From a virus, in the IMG/VR virus record IMGVR_UViG_3300032088_000012, positions 1 to 49,326 of that record: DNA of 49,326 nt, one strand, 5' to 3'. Below are positions 12,276 through 47,064 of this stretch, in pieces. The position numbers and the translations under genes were made by a program. The notes under the pieces were generated by a model. That model made no database searches, was not told the origin of the DNA, and saw only the letters and a list, made by a program, of their open reading frames with translations. Each line of letters begins with the position of its first letter. The stretch's first letter is position 1.

Positions 12276-12304
12276 AGTATATGTTATCTCAACAGAAAAG
12301 TCAA
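12276..12304 (-). promoter_or_regulatory. Sigma70-type promoter for tail chaperone and tail genes
   Basis: On the minus strand TTGACT (12304-12299) and TATACT (12281-12276) are separated by exactly 17 bp. The predicted start is near 12269, 58 nt upstream of the G-like ATG, so the leader includes the 12239-12264 hairpin. Confidence 0.65.
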
Positions 12305-29408: not shown

Positions 29409-30073
29409 AGAAAAAAATAATCATGGTATTGGATACCGAAACCGCCGATCTCACTGGCAGCATCTATGATATCGGCTACACTATTACAGATAAACAGGGA
29501 AACATTGCACTCACTCGCAACTGGCTCGTCGAAGAAATTTTTACGGATGCGAAAAAAATGATGGGCGCATTCTATGCAGGTAAGATATTCTCGCACTATG
29601 CCCCGATGCTACAGCGAGGCGATATTGAATTGACCTCTTGGTCAACAATCATCGAAACAATGCGAACCGATATCTTGGAGCATAATGTTAATGTTTTGGC
29701 TGCTTATAATTTACCTTTTGATACTCGCGTTATGCGTAACACTCATGCGGCACTAGGGTATACTGATAAGGTATTACCTCACGCGCTCGACCAGCTTTGC
29801 ATTTGGCAATTCGCTTGCGAAACTAAACTCAATACGCGACTTTACAAAACTCTTGCAGCAGAACAGGGATGGGTTAGCGATGCGGGAAACATTCGGACAG
29901 GCGCGGAATACGCTTACCGATTTTGTGCAGGTGATTGGGGTTTTATCGAGGATCACACAGCTTTGAGCGATGCAATTATCGAGACGGAAATTCTGGCGCG
30001 ATGCTTTGCGACTAACGCAAAAATTCCCTACAATAAAAAATCTGCAATGCCTTGGAGAATCGTAAATGCCTAA
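29405..30073 (+). CDS. DEDDh 3'-5' exonuclease (DnaQ-like)
   Basis: The 222-residue protein shows the exonuclease signature: D10-x-E12 in VLDTETADLTG, D106 in YNLPFDTRVM, and H184 with D189 in EDHTALSDAIIE. The acidic set plus histidine is the DEDDh class of DNA and RNA 3'-5' exonucleases. It may proofread, degrade host nucleic acid, or process RNA. It forms a tight operon with the HAD and PPK2 genes (4-8 nt overlaps). Confidence 0.88.
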   Translation: MKKKIIMVLDTETADLTGSIYDIGYTITDKQGNIALTRNWLVEEIFTDAKKMMGAFYAGKIFSHYAPMLQRGDIELTSWSTIIETMRTDILEHNVNVLAAYNLPFDTRVMRNTHAALGYTDKVLPHALDQLCIWQFACETKLNTRLYKTLAAEQGWVSDAGNIRTGAEYAYRFCAGDWGFIEDHTALSDAIIETEILARCFATNAKIPYNKKSAMPWRIVNA

Positions 30074-36539: not shown

Positions 36540-36712
36540 AAGAAATACGATCTAATATTAGTATTCAAGTATGCGACAATGGATACGTACTAGAATATAG
36601 TGGCACAACAGTAGACGGTAACTATAAGTGCTTTCGAGTAGTTTGCGAAGACCTAGATAGGCTAGTAAAAATTCTAGAATCTTTAACGGACTTACCCCTT
36701 GAACACTACTAA
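36533..36712 (+). CDS. Small hypothetical protein
   Basis: ATG 36533 to TAA 36712 encodes 59 residues (MLKEIRSNISIQVCDNGYVL, EYSGTTVDGNYKCFRVVCED, LDRLVKILESLTDLPLEHY), a compact beta-then-alpha pattern. AAAGGAG lies upstream at a longish distance. It overlaps both neighbours. Function unknown. Confidence 0.7.
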   Translation: MLKEIRSNISIQVCDNGYVLEYSGTTVDGNYKCFRVVCEDLDRLVKILESLTDLPLEHY

Positions 36713-36875
36713 ATTTTGCCCTACCTGTGACAAAGAGTTCAAAGTCGTACTCGAAGCTGCACGGTTTTGCTCAAGAGAGTGCGAAGAGGAAGCTGCCTCC
36801 CAATATGTCGAAATGAAGTTCACTACGGCGGCAGATATGCTTCGTGAAGAGCTAAAAAAGATTAAAGAAGATTAG
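36699..36875 (+). CDS. Small zinc-finger-like protein with TTG start
   Basis: From TTG 36699 the frame reads 58 residues: MNTTKFCPTCDKEFKVVLEA, ARFCSRECEEEAASQYVEMK and a helical basic end. C7-x2-C10 and C24-x3-C28 make a treble-clef/FCS-like zinc site. It ends 5 bp before the tmRNA acceptor segment, so the RNA may be transcribed with it. Function unknown. Confidence 0.68.
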   Translation: MNTTKFCPTCDKEFKVVLEAARFCSRECEEEAASQYVEMKFTTAADMLREELKKIKED

Positions 36876-36879
36876 AATT

Positions 36880-37170
36880 CGTTGAAGCATGTAATAGGAA
36901 GTTTGGACTCGGGTGCAAATCCCGATAGCTCCACCAAAAGAACACTGTCGGTGCTGTTGGAAAGCGCAGATGGACAACACTAGGACGCCGTTCGAATCGG
37001 AGCAGTGTTCTTTTGATGGGGCTATTCATAGATTCGACAGACAACTGAAAGCATGTGGAGAATAGGTGCGGGAGCTACCTTGAATGCAACAAACTCTATA
37101 AATGCAAACGACAGCGTTTATTCCTTAGCTGCATAGCTAAGCGGGGTCTCAGCAACCTTGTTAACCAACT
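36880..37170 (+). ncRNA. ssrA: Circularly permuted two-piece tmRNA
   Basis: The 3' acceptor part comes first: GAAGCATGTA, T-arm TCGGG-TGCAAAT-CCCGA and TAGCTCC-ACCA, ending at 36936. After an 81-nt intervening segment the 5' part begins at 37018 with GGGGCTA and the tRNA-like AGATTCGACAGA, then the tag frame at 37104-37136: ANDSVYSLAA and TAG. GGGGCTA pairs over 7 bp with TAGCTCC, including the G3-U70 wobble that marks alanine tRNAs. The tag is close to E. coli ANDENYALAA. CAGCA/TGCTG downstream suggests a pseudoknot or hairpin arm. Exact outer ends are estimated. Confidence 0.93.
36937..37017 (+). other. Intervening segment of the permuted tmRNA with a tRNA-like T-arm
   Basis: The segment starts and ends with a perfect inverted repeat (CAAAAGAACACTG at 36935-36947 and CAGTGTTCTTTTG at 37003-37015) stacked on the tmRNA acceptor stem. 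Inside are D-arm-like GTGC...TTGG...GCGC and T-arm-like CCG-TTCGAAT-CGG (36988-37000). With AACACTG/CAGTGTT it makes a tRNA-like fold lacking a clear anticodon arm. It is presumably cut out during maturation. Confidence 0.75.
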
Positions 37171-37175
37171 GCTGG

Positions 37176-37205
37176 AGCCTTCTCTGTTCTGGAGAGGGCT
37201 TTTTC
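37176..37205 (+). terminator. Rho-independent terminator after tmRNA
   Basis: AGCCTTCTC (37176-37184) pairs with GAGAGGGCT (37192-37200), 9 bp with one G-U, followed by TTTTC. It is the natural 3' end of the tmRNA precursor. Confidence 0.82.
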
Positions 37206-37267
37206 ACGTTAGTAAGAAGTACCGAAAGGACTTCAAAGTCCCGCCGAAAGGGGGAAAGGAGATATGT

Positions 37268-37693: not shown

Positions 37694-37810
37694 TTGAATA
37701 AGACTAAAACATACGAGAGAGCGTGCAAGTTTTGCGCGATCGTTGAAGGGTTAGCCCTATGCGCAGTAAGCATACTGATACCTTTCAGTATCGTAGCAAC
37801 CAATATGTAA
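37694..37810 (+). CDS. Tiny membrane protein with CxxC
   Basis: TTG 37694, at ideal distance from AGGAGAAGTCA, encodes 38 residues: MNKTKTYERACKFCAIVEGL, ALCAVSILIPFSIVATNM. It has a CxxC near residue 11 and one membrane span. It ends just before a terminator and the cytochrome-like genes. Function unknown. Confidence 0.62.
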   Translation: MNKTKTYERACKFCAIVEGLALCAVSILIPFSIVATNM

Positions 37811-37817
37811 GACCAGC

Positions 37818-37846
37818 AGGGTCGGGAGAAATCTCGACCCTTTTTC
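37818..37846 (+). terminator. Rho-independent terminator
   Basis: AGGGTCG (37818-37824) and CGACCCT (37835-37841) flank a 10-nt loop, followed by TTTTTC. It separates the Hsp20 unit from the heme/copper genes, which must then rely on readthrough or a hidden promoter. Confidence 0.82.
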
Positions 37847-37857
37847 TTGGAGAAATT

Positions 37858-39147
37858 ATGATTAAACTCGCGATAAACGTAGTAGCATTCTGCGCAGGTC
37901 TAGGAATAGGTGGAAAAGCCTTTTCGCAGACGTACACAGACAATGTAGCAGATATTATCAACAATAACTGCGTAGTTTGCCACCGAGAAGGTGGTATTGG
38001 GCCAATGAGCTTCGAAACCTATGAACAAGTACGTCCTTGGGCGCCTCTCATCTCGATGAAAGTAGCTTCTCGAGAAATGCCTCCATACGCTTACGATCAC
38101 GGTATTGGAATTCAGAGTCTACAAGGCGATTGGCGACTTAAACAAAAAGATATTGACACTATTGTAGCATGGGTCTCAACGGGGTCATTGTATGGCGATT
38201 CCGACACAATTGTACAGCTTCCAGAAATGGGCGACCCAGAGGCTTGGAATTTCGAAGCCGACTTTGGCGCACCTGATGCAATCATTCCTTCAGTAGCAAT
38301 TGATATTCCTGCGAACGGTAATGATCTGTGGCACAAACATTTAGTACCTACAGGTCTTACTGAAGATCGTTGTATTAAAGCAGTACAAGTTAAGCCTCGT
38401 GGCAATGCAAAGGCAGTAGTGCATCACGCTAACTCAAGTATTATTACTGAGGGAGGCAGAGAAGGTATGCTTACTGAGTATGCTATGGGAAAGTGGGGAG
38501 AGATTGTTCCAGAAGGAGTATGCAGAACTATCCCGGCAAACGCAGAAGTATCGTGGGATATACACATGTTCCCAGGTGGTCTTGGAGCGATGGCTCCTGG
38601 AAGTGTTATCAAGGACAATGTAGTAGAAATCGGTCTTTGGTTATACACAGAAGAGGAAAGCGCACAATTGAAATACAAGCAAGACTTGAGCTTGTATCGC
38701 CTTGGCAACCAGGACGATTTAGTAGTCCCACCCAATGGATATGCAATGACGCAAGGCTTTCACAGTTTCGATCATCCTGTGCGTTTAGATAGCTTTCAGC
38801 CCCATGGTCATCTTCGTATGAACGCTGCTAGTCTTGAAATCTTCTATCCAGCTACAGGTGTCACAGAGCAGATCAGTCAGATAAGCAAGTGGAGTGCTAC
38901 ATGGCATCACAGCCATCTATATGATCCAGACTTTGCTCCATTGATTCCAGAAGGCGCAGTGATTGTTCTCAAGCAGTGGTACGATAACACAGCGGCGAAC
39001 CCCAACAACCCAGATCCTGATATGTTTGTGATGGGTGGCTCACGCACTGGCGATGAGATGACTCACGCTTGGCTGGCAATTACGCATTTAGATGATGAAG
39101 GCTATAAGGAGCTGAAAGCCTCCAGAAGTATTATGGGAGATGATTAA
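37858..39147 (+). CDS. Exported c-type heme / copper monooxygenase-like protein, first of two
   Basis: ATG 37858 after TTGGAGAAATT gives 429 residues; the longer frame to 37759 lacks a site. A signal peptide (MIKLAINVVAFCAGLGIGGK AFSQ) precedes a cytochrome c-like domain with C38-V-V-C41-H42 and a likely axial Met in REMPPYAYD (M74). The rest resembles PHM-type copper type II monooxygenases: H189-H190, H236, H316-x-H318 and M401 (DEMTHAWL) match the ligand order HH, H, HxH, M. It would act in the periplasm. Substrate unknown; phage occurrence is very unusual. Confidence 0.82.
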   Translation: MIKLAINVVAFCAGLGIGGKAFSQTYTDNVADIINNNCVVCHREGGIGPMSFETYEQVRPWAPLISMKVASREMPPYAYDHGIGIQSLQGDWRLKQKDIDTIVAWVSTGSLYGDSDTIVQLPEMGDPEAWNFEADFGAPDAIIPSVAIDIPANGNDLWHKHLVPTGLTEDRCIKAVQVKPRGNAKAVVHHANSSIITEGGREGMLTEYAMGKWGEIVPEGVCRTIPANAEVSWDIHMFPGGLGAMAPGSVIKDNVVEIGLWLYTEEESAQLKYKQDLSLYRLGNQDDLVVPPNGYAMTQGFHSFDHPVRLDSFQPHGHLRMNAASLEIFYPATGVTEQISQISKWSATWHHSHLYDPDFAPLIPEGAVIVLKQWYDNTAANPNNPDPDMFVMGGSRTGDEMTHAWLAITHLDDEGYKELKASRSIMGDD

Positions 39148-40412
39148 TGAATAGTATTAAAAAACTGTTATGGTTAAGCACTGTAGCAATATGGACAGCA
39201 CTACTGTGCGGTATTACAATTGCTGCAAAAGCAGCAGAGATAGACTATGCAAAAAATGTAGCTCCTATCTTTGTTGAACAGTGCCAAAGCTGTCATCGTG
39301 AAGGGGGTATTGCACCGTGGGCTATGACTGATTACAGAATGGTTCAAGCTTTTGCTCCTGCAATCAAAGAAGCAGTTGTAAATCTAAAAATGCCCCCAGG
39401 TCAGATTGACCGCAAGTATGCAGATGTAATCATCAATCATAGAACACTCAGTGATCTAGAAATGAGTACAATTGTTGAGTGGGTCAATGCAGGTGCTCCT
39501 GTAGAAGGCGATCGAGATCCTCTAACAGAGACTGTGTACTCTACTTCAGAGTGGGTACACGGAGAGCCTGATATGGTGATTGAAGTACCTCCTCAAGAGA
39601 TTCCTGCTGTTGGTACAATGGGGCCTAGATCAATTCCTTATCGTTATGTGGGCGTTGACTTGGGACTAACTGAAGACAAGTGGCTTCGTGGTTCGCAGTT
39701 CCTACCCTCAGAGCCTACTGTCATGCATCACATGCTAAACTCAGTATCAGTACCAGGTGAACGCAACGGCAACATCTTAGGCACACAAGGTGCAGAACAG
39801 CAGAACATGGACTATGCGAGCGTAAGTGCGTATGTTCCTGGGGGTGATCCAGACTTCTATGACGAAAATACTGGTGGCTTGCTAAGAGCAGGTTCGACAG
39901 TAAATCTACAGTTACACTACACGCCAGACGGTACAGCCAGAACAGACGAAGCACGAATTGGTTTGTACTTTCACGATGAAGGCGTAGTACCAGAAGATAG
40001 AATGGCAGGCGATTGTGCTTGCATCTTCCCTAACAATTGGACAACTATTCCTGCATTCGACCCTAATTTTGTACAGACAGCAGAAGTAGTGTTGAAGAAT
40101 GATGTAAATCTTCATACCTTCTTACCTCATATGCACTTTCGAGGAAAGAGTATGAAAGCCACAGCATTCTACCCAGACGGTACTTCAGAAGAGCTTATCG
40201 ATGTTCCACGATATGACTATGCTTGGCAGCTATCATATACTTGGAGAGAGCCTAAATTCTTGCCTGCAGGTACAAGACTATTTGTAGAAGGAGCGTTTGA
40301 TAATTCAGCAGATAATCCAATGAATCCAGACCCTAGTAGAGATGTACCTTGGGGTCAGATGTCAGAAGATGAAATGTTTTTTGGAGCGTTTACATGGAAG
40401 AACTTGCAGTAA
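39147..40412 (+). CDS. Exported c-type heme / copper monooxygenase-like protein, second of two
   Basis: ATG 39147 overlaps the previous TAA by one base. The 421-residue paralog has a signal peptide (MNSIKKLLWLSTVAIWTALL to AAKAAE), heme motif C46-Q-S-C49-H50 with likely axial M82 in KMPPGQ, and a copper ligand set H194-H195, H257 (LQLHYTPDG), H328-x-H330 (LPHMHFRGK) and M410 (EDEMFFGAF). This one matches bacterial cytochrome-PHM-like proteins more closely than the first. The pair may form a heterodimer or successive enzymes. Function is inferred from ligands only. Confidence 0.84.
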   Translation: MNSIKKLLWLSTVAIWTALLCGITIAAKAAEIDYAKNVAPIFVEQCQSCHREGGIAPWAMTDYRMVQAFAPAIKEAVVNLKMPPGQIDRKYADVIINHRTLSDLEMSTIVEWVNAGAPVEGDRDPLTETVYSTSEWVHGEPDMVIEVPPQEIPAVGTMGPRSIPYRYVGVDLGLTEDKWLRGSQFLPSEPTVMHHMLNSVSVPGERNGNILGTQGAEQQNMDYASVSAYVPGGDPDFYDENTGGLLRAGSTVNLQLHYTPDGTARTDEARIGLYFHDEGVVPEDRMAGDCACIFPNNWTTIPAFDPNFVQTAEVVLKNDVNLHTFLPHMHFRGKSMKATAFYPDGTSEELIDVPRYDYAWQLSYTWREPKFLPAGTRLFVEGAFDNSADNPMNPDPSRDVPWGQMSEDEMFFGAFTWKNLQ

Positions 40413-45277: not shown

Positions 45278-45301
45278 ATACATATAAATTTGGAGAAGCC
45301 T

Positions 45302-46228
45302 TTGAAAGAATTTTTAGATACCGCTAGTGCTGCTTATTATAAGGGTGAGCCAATCATCTCAGACGAAGAGTTTGATAGATTAGCTCAAGCGTATTCCTAT
45401 AATGTAGTTGGACACACTATTTCTGGTGGGATTCCTCACCGCTATAAAATGTACTCTTTACAGAAGTATTTCGATATTAATGATGCTCCTGATTTAGACG
45501 GGTACATTTCTACCCCTAAGTTAGACGGAGCAGCAATCTCTATACTCTATGTAGAAGGACAGCTTGCTATGGCACTAACTCGTGGAGATGGTAACAAAGG
45601 TCAAGATATTACAGACAAAGTACGGCTTCTAGTACCTAATGAAATTATGCAACCAGGTACCGTACAAATTACTGGAGAAGTAGTATGCCCGTCTTCCGTT
45701 ACGAATGCTCGTAACGTCGCAGCGGGGTCATTGAATCTGAAAGATATCGAAGAATTTAAGAAACGCCCTCTAACGTTTGTAGCCTATGACATCCAAGGAA
45801 ACCACGTATTTTCATCCTGGGCAATGGCACTGAACTCTCTACAAGTACAACAGTTTAATACTGTACATAAGTTTAATGCTGATGAGTATCCAACTGACGG
45901 AATAGTATACAGATTGGATAGCTATAAAAACTTCGAGAAGATGGGCTACACAGCACATCATCCTCGCGGAGCTTTTGCTCTCAAAGAGCAGAAGGAAGGA
46001 GTAATAACAACACTCCTAGATGTTGTATGGCAAGTAGGTAAAAGCGGGGTCGTAAGTCCTGTAGCTATTCTAGAGCCTATAGAGATTGGAGATGCAGTAG
46101 TATCCCGAGCAACTCTGCACAACATTGAATACATACGGGAATTGGACTTGGAATTAGGATGTAAGGTGGAGGTTATTCGCTCTGGTGAGATCATTCCGAG
46201 AATAGTTAAGAAAGTTGTTAACCTGTAA
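45302..46228 (+). CDS. ligA: NAD-dependent DNA ligase, N-terminal part (adenylation and OB domains)
   Basis: TTG 45302 with GGAGAAGCC upstream gives 308 residues. The Ia domain motif is YYKGEPIISDEEFDRL (residues ~12-27). K73 in TPKLDGAAIS is the adenylated lysine (KxDG). Further motifs: LTRGDGNKGQDIT, ITGEVVCP, NARNVAAGSLNLKD, DGIVYRL, FALKEQ, and the OB fold VVWQVGKSGVVSPVAILEPI to CKVEVIRSGEIIPRIV. The protein stops exactly where LigA normally continues into the zinc finger. The rest is in the next gene, so the ligase is split. Confidence 0.92.
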   Translation: MKEFLDTASAAYYKGEPIISDEEFDRLAQAYSYNVVGHTISGGIPHRYKMYSLQKYFDINDAPDLDGYISTPKLDGAAISILYVEGQLAMALTRGDGNKGQDITDKVRLLVPNEIMQPGTVQITGEVVCPSSVTNARNVAAGSLNLKDIEEFKKRPLTFVAYDIQGNHVFSSWAMALNSLQVQQFNTVHKFNADEYPTDGIVYRLDSYKNFEKMGYTAHHPRGAFALKEQKEGVITTLLDVVWQVGKSGVVSPVAILEPIEIGDAVVSRATLHNIEYIRELDLELGCKVEVIRSGEIIPRIVKKVVNL

Positions 46229-46296: not shown

Positions 46297-47064
46297 ATGA
46301 CAGAAATTCAAGCCCCGACACATTGCCCTTCGTGCAAATCGTCACTTGAATGGTCTAACCATCTACTTTACTGTAGGAACGAAGCCTGTGATTCACAATC
46401 AACAAAGAAGTTGGAGCATTTCGCAAAAACACTAAAGATTAAAGGACTTGGTCCTGCGTCTATCACTAAGCTAGGTCTTACTAGCTTGGAGGATATTTAT
46501 TCGCTCGAATTAAGTGATTTATGTGAGAAGCTCTCTTCCGAGAAGTTAGGACACAAACTGTTACTAGAGATAGAAAACTCTAAGAAAGTAGGTCTTGAGA
46601 CTCTTTTGCCAGCTTTTAGTATTCCTCTGATCGGTAAAACTGCCGCAGAAAAATTATCAAAAGTCTGCAACTCAATAAGCGACATAGACGACGATAGCTG
46701 CAAAAGAGCAGGACTAGGTCAGAAAGCTACTGAGAGTCTTATTTCCTGGCTACATAGGGACTTCTATTCCTACTATGATGGGTATCTCCCCTTTAGTTTT
46801 AAGTTTAGCAAGGCTAGTAGTAATGTTAATGTTGCAACCAAAGGTACAGTTTGTATCTCAGGCAAATTAAATAGTTACAAAACGAAAGCCGAAGCAGCTA
46901 GTACTCTGGAAGACTTGGGATATACAGTCAAAAGCAGTTTAACAAAAGATGTAACGATTCTAGTAAACGAAAGTGGTGTAGAATCGTTAAAAACTCAAAA
47001 AGCCAGAGAATCTGGCGTAGAAATAGTTACTAACCTTAAAACTTTTATTTTGGAGAATATATAA
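46297..47064 (+). CDS. NAD-dependent DNA ligase, C-terminal part (Zn finger, HhH, BRCT)
   Basis: The 255-residue protein begins with the LigA zinc finger C10-x2-C13-x12-C26-x4-C31, followed by helix-hairpin-helix repeats (LKIKGLGPASITKLGLTSLE and FSIPLIGKTAAEKLSKVCNS) and a C-terminal BRCT domain (about 185-255: KGTVCISGKLNSYKTKAEAA, TLEDLGYTV). It completes the preceding ligase half. Phage T5 also has its NAD ligase in two genes. It ends in TAATG with the next gene. Confidence 0.9.
   Translation: MTEIQAPTHCPSCKSSLEWSNHLLYCRNEACDSQSTKKLEHFAKTLKIKGLGPASITKLGLTSLEDIYSLELSDLCEKLSSEKLGHKLLLEIENSKKVGLETLLPAFSIPLIGKTAAEKLSKVCNSISDIDDDSCKRAGLGQKATESLISWLHRDFYSYYDGYLPFSFKFSKASSNVNVATKGTVCISGKLNSYKTKAEAASTLEDLGYTVKSSLTKDVTILVNESGVESLKTQKARESGVEIVTNLKTFILENI

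Follow-up and report, generated by a model that had tools for sequence, protein, structure and literature searches.

A phage two-piece tmRNA gene carrying a conserved tRNA-like RNA element as its intervening segment

A circularly permuted, two-piece tmRNA (ssrA) is encoded in the window, by which we mean the whole stretch of DNA analysed, a virus record of 49,326 bases with genes for phage terminase, portal, tape-measure, major tail and DnaB-type helicase proteins. The 81 nt lying between the two tmRNA pieces are, as judged by sequence comparison, a single representative of a conserved viral RNA element that has not been described previously. The preliminary description of this DNA, made from the letters alone, took these 81 nt for a spacer; the segment is present as described but is not a mere spacer, since it encloses the conserved tRNA-like element, and the novelty, which is without precedent, sits there. 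The reading that we consider probable is that of two nested RNA genes, one for a working permuted tmRNA and one, in the excised 81-nt segment, for a separate viral tRNA-mimic RNA that would probably act in trans.

The tmRNA itself is genuine. The Rfam model tmRNA_permuted (RF04321) matched at 36877–37136 over its full length (model 1–213 of 213) with 95.2 bits against a cut-off of 47 (E 2.7e-17, whole window), and ARAGORN called a tmRNA* at 36844–37227 with the tag ANDSVYSLAA, the sole tRNA or tmRNA gene called in the window. A covariance search with a permuted tmRNA model and an ARAGORN run had been proposed as checks, and both were thus positive; together with the structural genes, they bear out the claim of a permuted two-piece tmRNA on a phage record. 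The CCA end, the 81 nt, GGGGCTA and the tag frame all stand where the preliminary description had placed them (Table 1). As it had also observed, the acceptor strands TAGCTCC-A-CCA and GGGGCTA are fully complementary, with G3 opposite U70. The features by which RF04321 members are recognized are present, namely CCA before and a 5' G after the intervening segment, and a tag frame with a resume codon and a stop. Of the models searched, RF04321 alone passed in the window; neither lineage model, RF01849 nor RF01850 (alpha and beta tmRNA), matched at gathering. On the window tmRNA beta_tmRNA gave 56.5 bits (cut-off 84), and alpha_tmRNA gave 50.3 bits (cut-off 50) on locus L263, which has a near-identical 5' part. 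The T-loop of the tmRNA reads TGCAAAT and not TTCAAAT (U55 to G). It was considered as a possible defect and this was rejected, as G occupies that position in 80 of 261 viral permuted tmRNA matches. The terminator-like hairpin followed by T5, at which the 3' end was set, was recognized by eye and was absent from the output of the consensus terminator scan.

Table 1. Positions of the tmRNA gene and of the tRNA-like element in the window
Feature	Position	Strand	Basis
Permuted tmRNA gene (ssrA), whole	36877–37205	+	3' end set at hairpin then T5
Acceptor piece of tmRNA	36877–36936	+	Sequence; RF04321 alignment
tmRNA T-arm, in acceptor piece	36909–36925	+	Sequence
tmRNA acceptor 3' strand and encoded CCA (TAGCTCCACCA)	36926–36936	+	Sequence; RF04321 alignment
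Intervening segment, 81 nt (tRNA-like element)	36937–37017	+	Model R2 match 36936–37016, 83.3 bits; covariation
Closing stem of element	36937–36948 with 37002–37013 (inverted repeat: 36936–36947 with 37002–37013)	+	12 Watson-Crick pairs and one T-G wobble (T36948-G37002 region)
Element D-arm	36951–36967	+	Model R2; covariation
Element short arm, loop GACAA	36969–36981	+	Model R2; covariation
Element variable loop, five nt	36982–36986	+	Model R2
Element T-arm	36987–37001	+	Model R2; covariation
Coding piece, 5' part: tRNA-like 5' region as far as resume codon	37018–37103	+	RF04321 alignment
GGGGCTA, acceptor 5' strand	37018–37024	+	Sequence; RF04321 alignment
Tag frame GCA AAC GAC AGC GTT TAT TCC TTA GCT GCA TAG (ANDSVYSLAA and stop TAG)	37104–37136	+	ARAGORN; sequence
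Coding piece, 3' part, resembling betaproteobacterial model	37137–37205	+	beta_tmRNA alignment, below cut-off
Hairpin GCCTTCTC/GAGAGGGC then T5, ending coding piece	37177–37199	+	Terminator by eye

A permuted tmRNA in a phage had been thought rare at best, which does not hold: public phage genomes yielded 133 unique tmRNA structures, 53 of them two-piece and 50 of these from marine or aquatic phages (PMC9004378), and our two loose patterns describing the permuted arrangement matched at least 120 viral stretches each and at least 240 together. The two-piece tmRNA of the OM43 phage Melnitz has been published (PMC9004378), and phage tmRNAs are also included in the 2025 tmRNA database, where RF04321 is described as the merged permuted model (PMC11915505). 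The window tmRNA is therefore a further member of an already known kind, one more phage case among many. It most likely functions as usual with host SmpB. By this scheme, i) one transcript would be cut after the CCA (36936) and before GGGG (37018), ii) the two pieces would be held together via acceptor-stem pairing, iii) the tRNA-like half would be charged with alanine through G3-U70, and iv) the tmRNA, with SmpB, would rescue stalled ribosomes and append ANDSVYSLAA. The earlier idea that an unusual tag might redirect degradation lost its ground, as this tag has the usual AND...LAA form and ANDSVYALAA occurs five times among the matches listed.

Compared with the tmRNA at 12276–12659 of L263, the window tmRNA has 232 of 238 aligned positions equal (97%) up to the resume region and 52 of 96 (54%) after it. 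By this comparison it is a mosaic, its tag and 3' part having apparently been exchanged. Among 262 viral permuted tmRNAs, the similarity within several families of spacers is greater than that of the adjoining tmRNA flanks (for example, identities of 0.99 versus 0.69, 0.93 versus 0.65 and 0.91 versus 0.64), random pairs having identities of 0.51 in the spacer and 0.62 in the flank. Phage tmRNAs seem to have exchanged spacers, tags and 3' parts with one another. In L035, L021, L023, L139, L165, L122 and relatives, other conserved spacer families likewise exceed their flanks in similarity, which suggests that the intervening segment of viral permuted tmRNAs is a site of exchangeable modules. The spacers of L006, L015, L030, L076 and L104 hold an ATG-started small-peptide frame (MFENWHWxYLWGIA...) that continues into the coding piece and so overlaps the tmRNA gene. 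Those of L077 and L107 hold a zinc-finger-like frame (CxxCGKxF...HCSxxC) resembling that of the small ORF at 36699–36875 of the window, which ends directly upstream of the tmRNA.

The spacer of the window is 83% identical over 41 nt to the spacers of L050 and L064, though the tmRNAs differ. A pattern built on the part common to these three spacers matched 58 viral stretches, and the majority of the copies lay outside tmRNAs, among tRNA genes or beside tmRNAs. A broader pattern of 26 nt matched at least 119 viral stretches, and its scrambled version matched none; since copies were collected by patterns, diverged members are missed and these counts are lower bounds. Relaxing the pattern in another way was abandoned, chance matches in coding DNA being about as numerous as true copies. 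The diverged copy L189, which had not been included in the first model, was found by it at 64.9 bits. No match to two narrow patterns was present in 84,980 GTDB cellular genomes, and a cellular origin of the element was rejected on this narrow-pattern scan. In blastn searches of deposited phages three variants of the element had no match and a fourth gave only stray short ones. Rfam had no family for the element, either in 13 loci at curated cut-offs or in two isolated copies at permissive limits; RF00005 did not match these two copies at permissive limits, and ARAGORN called no copy as a tRNA.

These copies bear on the possibility that the segment is a plain permuted-tmRNA spacer, conserved merely through tmRNA kinship. 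Closing inverted repeats are general in spacers of viral permuted tmRNAs, as would fit this possibility, so that the repeat alone is not special. However, the same core is present outside tmRNAs, and the mean identity among tmRNAs sharing the element is higher in the spacers (0.80) than in the flanks, where 0.66 is close to the value for random pairs (0.62). We regard the plain spacer as hardly credible, and as a full account it is refuted by the broad-pattern copies, the covariation and the gene neighbourhoods described here.

The 13-bp inverted repeat of the preliminary description stands for 12 Watson-Crick pairs, the thirteenth pair being a wobble, and corresponds to the closing stem of the element, the length of which is very variable between copies. 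Numbered as a tRNA, the element shows a five-pair D-stem, G18 and G19 in the D-loop, a short arm with four pairs and a canonical T-loop. In an alignment of 61 sequences, 84.7% of cells pair and 18 of the 24 pairs show changes in both partners. The covariation score was 0.563, compared with 0.174 after shuffling (0 of 500) and at most 0.134 with slid partners; as the 61 rows are related, the shuffle counts are not probabilities and the slide control is safer. In the same alignment, the pair closing GACAA is C-G in 24, A-U in 22 and G-C in 15 sequences, without exception; four pairs of the D-stem covary; the T-stem pair 52-62 is G-C in 50 and C-G in 11; and the tertiary elbow pair 19-56 is G-C in 54, A-U in 6 and G-U in 1. 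Among these telling pairs, the search pattern restricted position 56 only (C or T), whereas it prescribed GACAA, a few linking bases and the greater part of the T-loop, so that the invariance of these is partly by construction. RNAalifold, unaided, recovered four D-stem pairs from the alignment. In L189, compensating changes make the D-stem fully Watson-Crick, and the short arm has G-C where the first set has A-C. Weak matches to the models (about 14–26 bits) fell mostly on ordinary tRNA genes, an independent sign of the tRNA likeness of the element. Against the fold, the outer T-stem pairs are mostly A-A, A-C is frequent in the short arm, and single-sequence folding gave no cloverleaf for the element. 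Two other structures were rejected. The first core fold given by RNAalifold (hairpins CTGTG/CGCAG and GAAC/GTTC) had only one of nine inner pairs changed on both sides, in only 2 of the 61 sequences, and another pair broken in 26; a plain hairpin was ruled out by the conserved copies outside tmRNAs and the covarying fold. On this comparative evidence, we take the element to be tRNA-shaped, with a D-loop/T-loop elbow and without a usable anticodon arm.

Its tRNA-like fold, its tRNA neighbours and the weak model matches to real tRNAs might also be explained if the element were a decayed gene, a former phage tRNA stuck in a spacer and functionless. In contrast to such decay, dozens of distinct flanks enclose one conserved core with compensated changes, and neither ARAGORN nor the Rfam tRNA model calls the element. 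Base pairs kept by compensation exclude decay for the family, but a single copy could still be dead; overall, we consider a decayed tRNA very improbable.

In 26 of 26 whole records, of up to 160 kb, there was exactly one strong match (>70 bits) each, the remaining matches being at 20–26 bits, the level at which the models match tRNAs. Among the matches listed, 661 tRNA or tmRNA genes in the element loci were on the strand of the element and none on the opposite strand, and 87 of 113 copies were within 30 nt of a tRNA or tmRNA gene, whereas randomly chosen positions and strands gave 11 on average and 20 at most. Once near-identical copies had been removed, the matches listed comprised 25 between tRNAs, 17 inside tmRNA spacers (a class into which L309, L351 and L378 were put, although they closely precede the tmRNA), 17 directly 5' of a tmRNA, 9 beside one tRNA, 16 with a tRNA or tmRNA farther off in the stretch and 14 for which none was called; these classes are rough, as ARAGORN misses some tmRNAs (L242 and L270). 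In L281, the element is 2 nt from each flanking tRNA, and in L337, L362 and L366 a perfect promoter sequence, TTGACA-17-TATAAT, is located immediately upstream of the element and tmRNA. That a genome has a single copy however many tRNAs it encodes points to a trans-acting gene rather than a punctuation mark.

The placement could alternatively be that of a handle acting in cis, a tRNA-like head that would aid precursor folding, or draw RNase P or RNase Z to the neighbouring tRNA or tmRNA ends, and then be discarded. RNase P- and RNase Z-type enzymes bind the tRNA elbow, which would suit such a role, as would the facts that the element is always among RNAs cut by these enzymes, on the same strand, and that inside tmRNAs it fills exactly the removed segment. 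However, there is one element per genome regardless of tRNA count, tRNAs require no such aid, and the element is in the spacer of 3 of the 240 viral permuted tmRNA loci listed (L202–L241 included), the others maturing with unrelated spacers. We judge the handle to be unlikely. Control of transcription was also weighed, with the GACAA hairpin as a boxB-like site for an N-like protein allowing read-through of untranslated tRNA/tmRNA operons. The loop is identical to the P22 boxB pentaloop GACAA (PMC12550061), and in some relatives the element would be transcribed first; yet many copies are in the middle of a tRNA array or inside a tmRNA, where processing would cut them off the transcript, and boxB requires no tRNA elbow. 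Antitermination seems to us improbable.

Returning to the two nested genes, the cuts that make the CCA end and the 5' G of the tmRNA would also free the 81-nt segment, and between tRNAs, e.g. in L281, the cuts of tRNA-end maturation would likewise free the element. Its transcription, processing, release and stability are what we infer from its sequence and surroundings. The single copy and the conserved core suggest that the freed element acts in trans, and the conserved elbow and GACAA loop suggest a protein partner; most likely it would occupy a protein with affinity for the tRNA elbow, the GACAA loop or both. As a guess, the partner may be an elbow-binding enzyme, EF-Tu, SmpB or a tRNA-attacking defence enzyme. 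A wider proposal, which we put forward tentatively as having somewhat less than an even chance, is that small viral RNAs of this type, which keep the tRNA elbow but lack a decoding arm, form a widespread family; they would occur once per genome as cargo of tRNA arrays or permuted tmRNA spacers, be released by maturation of their carriers and act in trans on some protein that binds tRNA, perhaps as counter-defence decoys; more broadly, the spacer of viral permuted tmRNAs would be a slot for exchangeable RNA modules.

What is new is a conserved, single-copy tRNA-like RNA that has no Rfam family and is tied to translation RNA genes in more than a hundred environmental virus sequences. A permuted tmRNA with such an RNA as its intervening segment is new, and the element alone may deserve more, given a free RNA. 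Should the element exist as a free RNA, phages would possess a dedicated tRNA mimic, the target of which could be tested directly (an enzyme of processing or modification, EF-Tu, SmpB or a defence enzyme that attacks tRNAs), and small RNA genes could be sought in the segment that permuted tmRNAs discard.

Other genes of the window are worth noting. Two proteins, encoded at 37759–39147 and 39147–40412, have a CxxCH haem-binding-like motif near the N-terminus and are shared with the tmRNA relatives L077 and L268; they had no PHROG, Pfam or NCBIfam match and are perhaps metabolic genes acquired from a host. A polyphosphate kinase 2 (PF03976, E 2e-46) is encoded in this phage at 30066–30683, and an NAD-dependent DNA ligase, LigA, is split over two adjacent reading frames (45290–46228 and 46297–47064).

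Among known RNAs, the RF04321 tmRNAs of the Melnitz type share with that of the window the order of acceptor piece, intervening segment and coding piece, the CCA, G3-U70, the resume codon and an AND...LAA tag. In contrast, the intervening segment of the window is a conserved tRNA-like RNA that is also found outside tmRNAs, and we found no report in the literature of a tmRNA intervening segment like it. With tRNA (RF00005), the element shares the D-stem, the GG of the D-loop, the T-loop TTCGAAT, the 19-56 elbow pair, the five-nt variable loop and an acceptor-like stem; the elbow that characterizes tRNA is indicated by the 19-56 pair, the covarying D-stem and the canonical T-loop. It differs in having no encoded CCA and in carrying, in place of an anticodon arm, a weak four-pair arm with a five-nt GACAA loop. 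A seven-nt anticodon loop with U33 is absent; the GACAA loop is itself fixed by the pattern, and its closing pair covaries in three states. The mascRNA-menRNA family (RF01684) is a small tRNA-like fold cut out of a longer RNA (MALAT1/MEN-beta) by tRNA enzymes, as is proposed for the element, but it is an animal nuclear RNA, and the element scores 14.3 bits with its model, against a cut-off of 42.5. The small stable RNAs rnaC and rnaD of T4 (NC_000866) are viral non-tRNA RNAs lying flush among same-strand tRNA genes; they differ in length (139 and 119 nt) and have no sequence kinship to the element beyond the T-arm. The rnaC gene (L391, 1909–2047) has the T-arm CCGGGTTCGAATCCCGG near its 3' end. 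Homology of the element to rnaC was rejected, the best match in the T4 region being rnaC at 14.3 bits, in the T-arm only, compared with 13.7 for T4 tRNAs. With its covariation, the element gives a point of comparison for rnaC, rnaD and other small stable RNAs of phage tRNA clusters, a long-standing puzzle. Finally, the boxB of P22, which serves N-peptide antitermination, has the GACAA pentaloop on a short stem (PMC12550061), a likeness to the element seen in a comparison of the loop: boxB is a lone hairpin of the nut site, whereas the GACAA hairpin of the element would be one arm of a tRNA-like fold.
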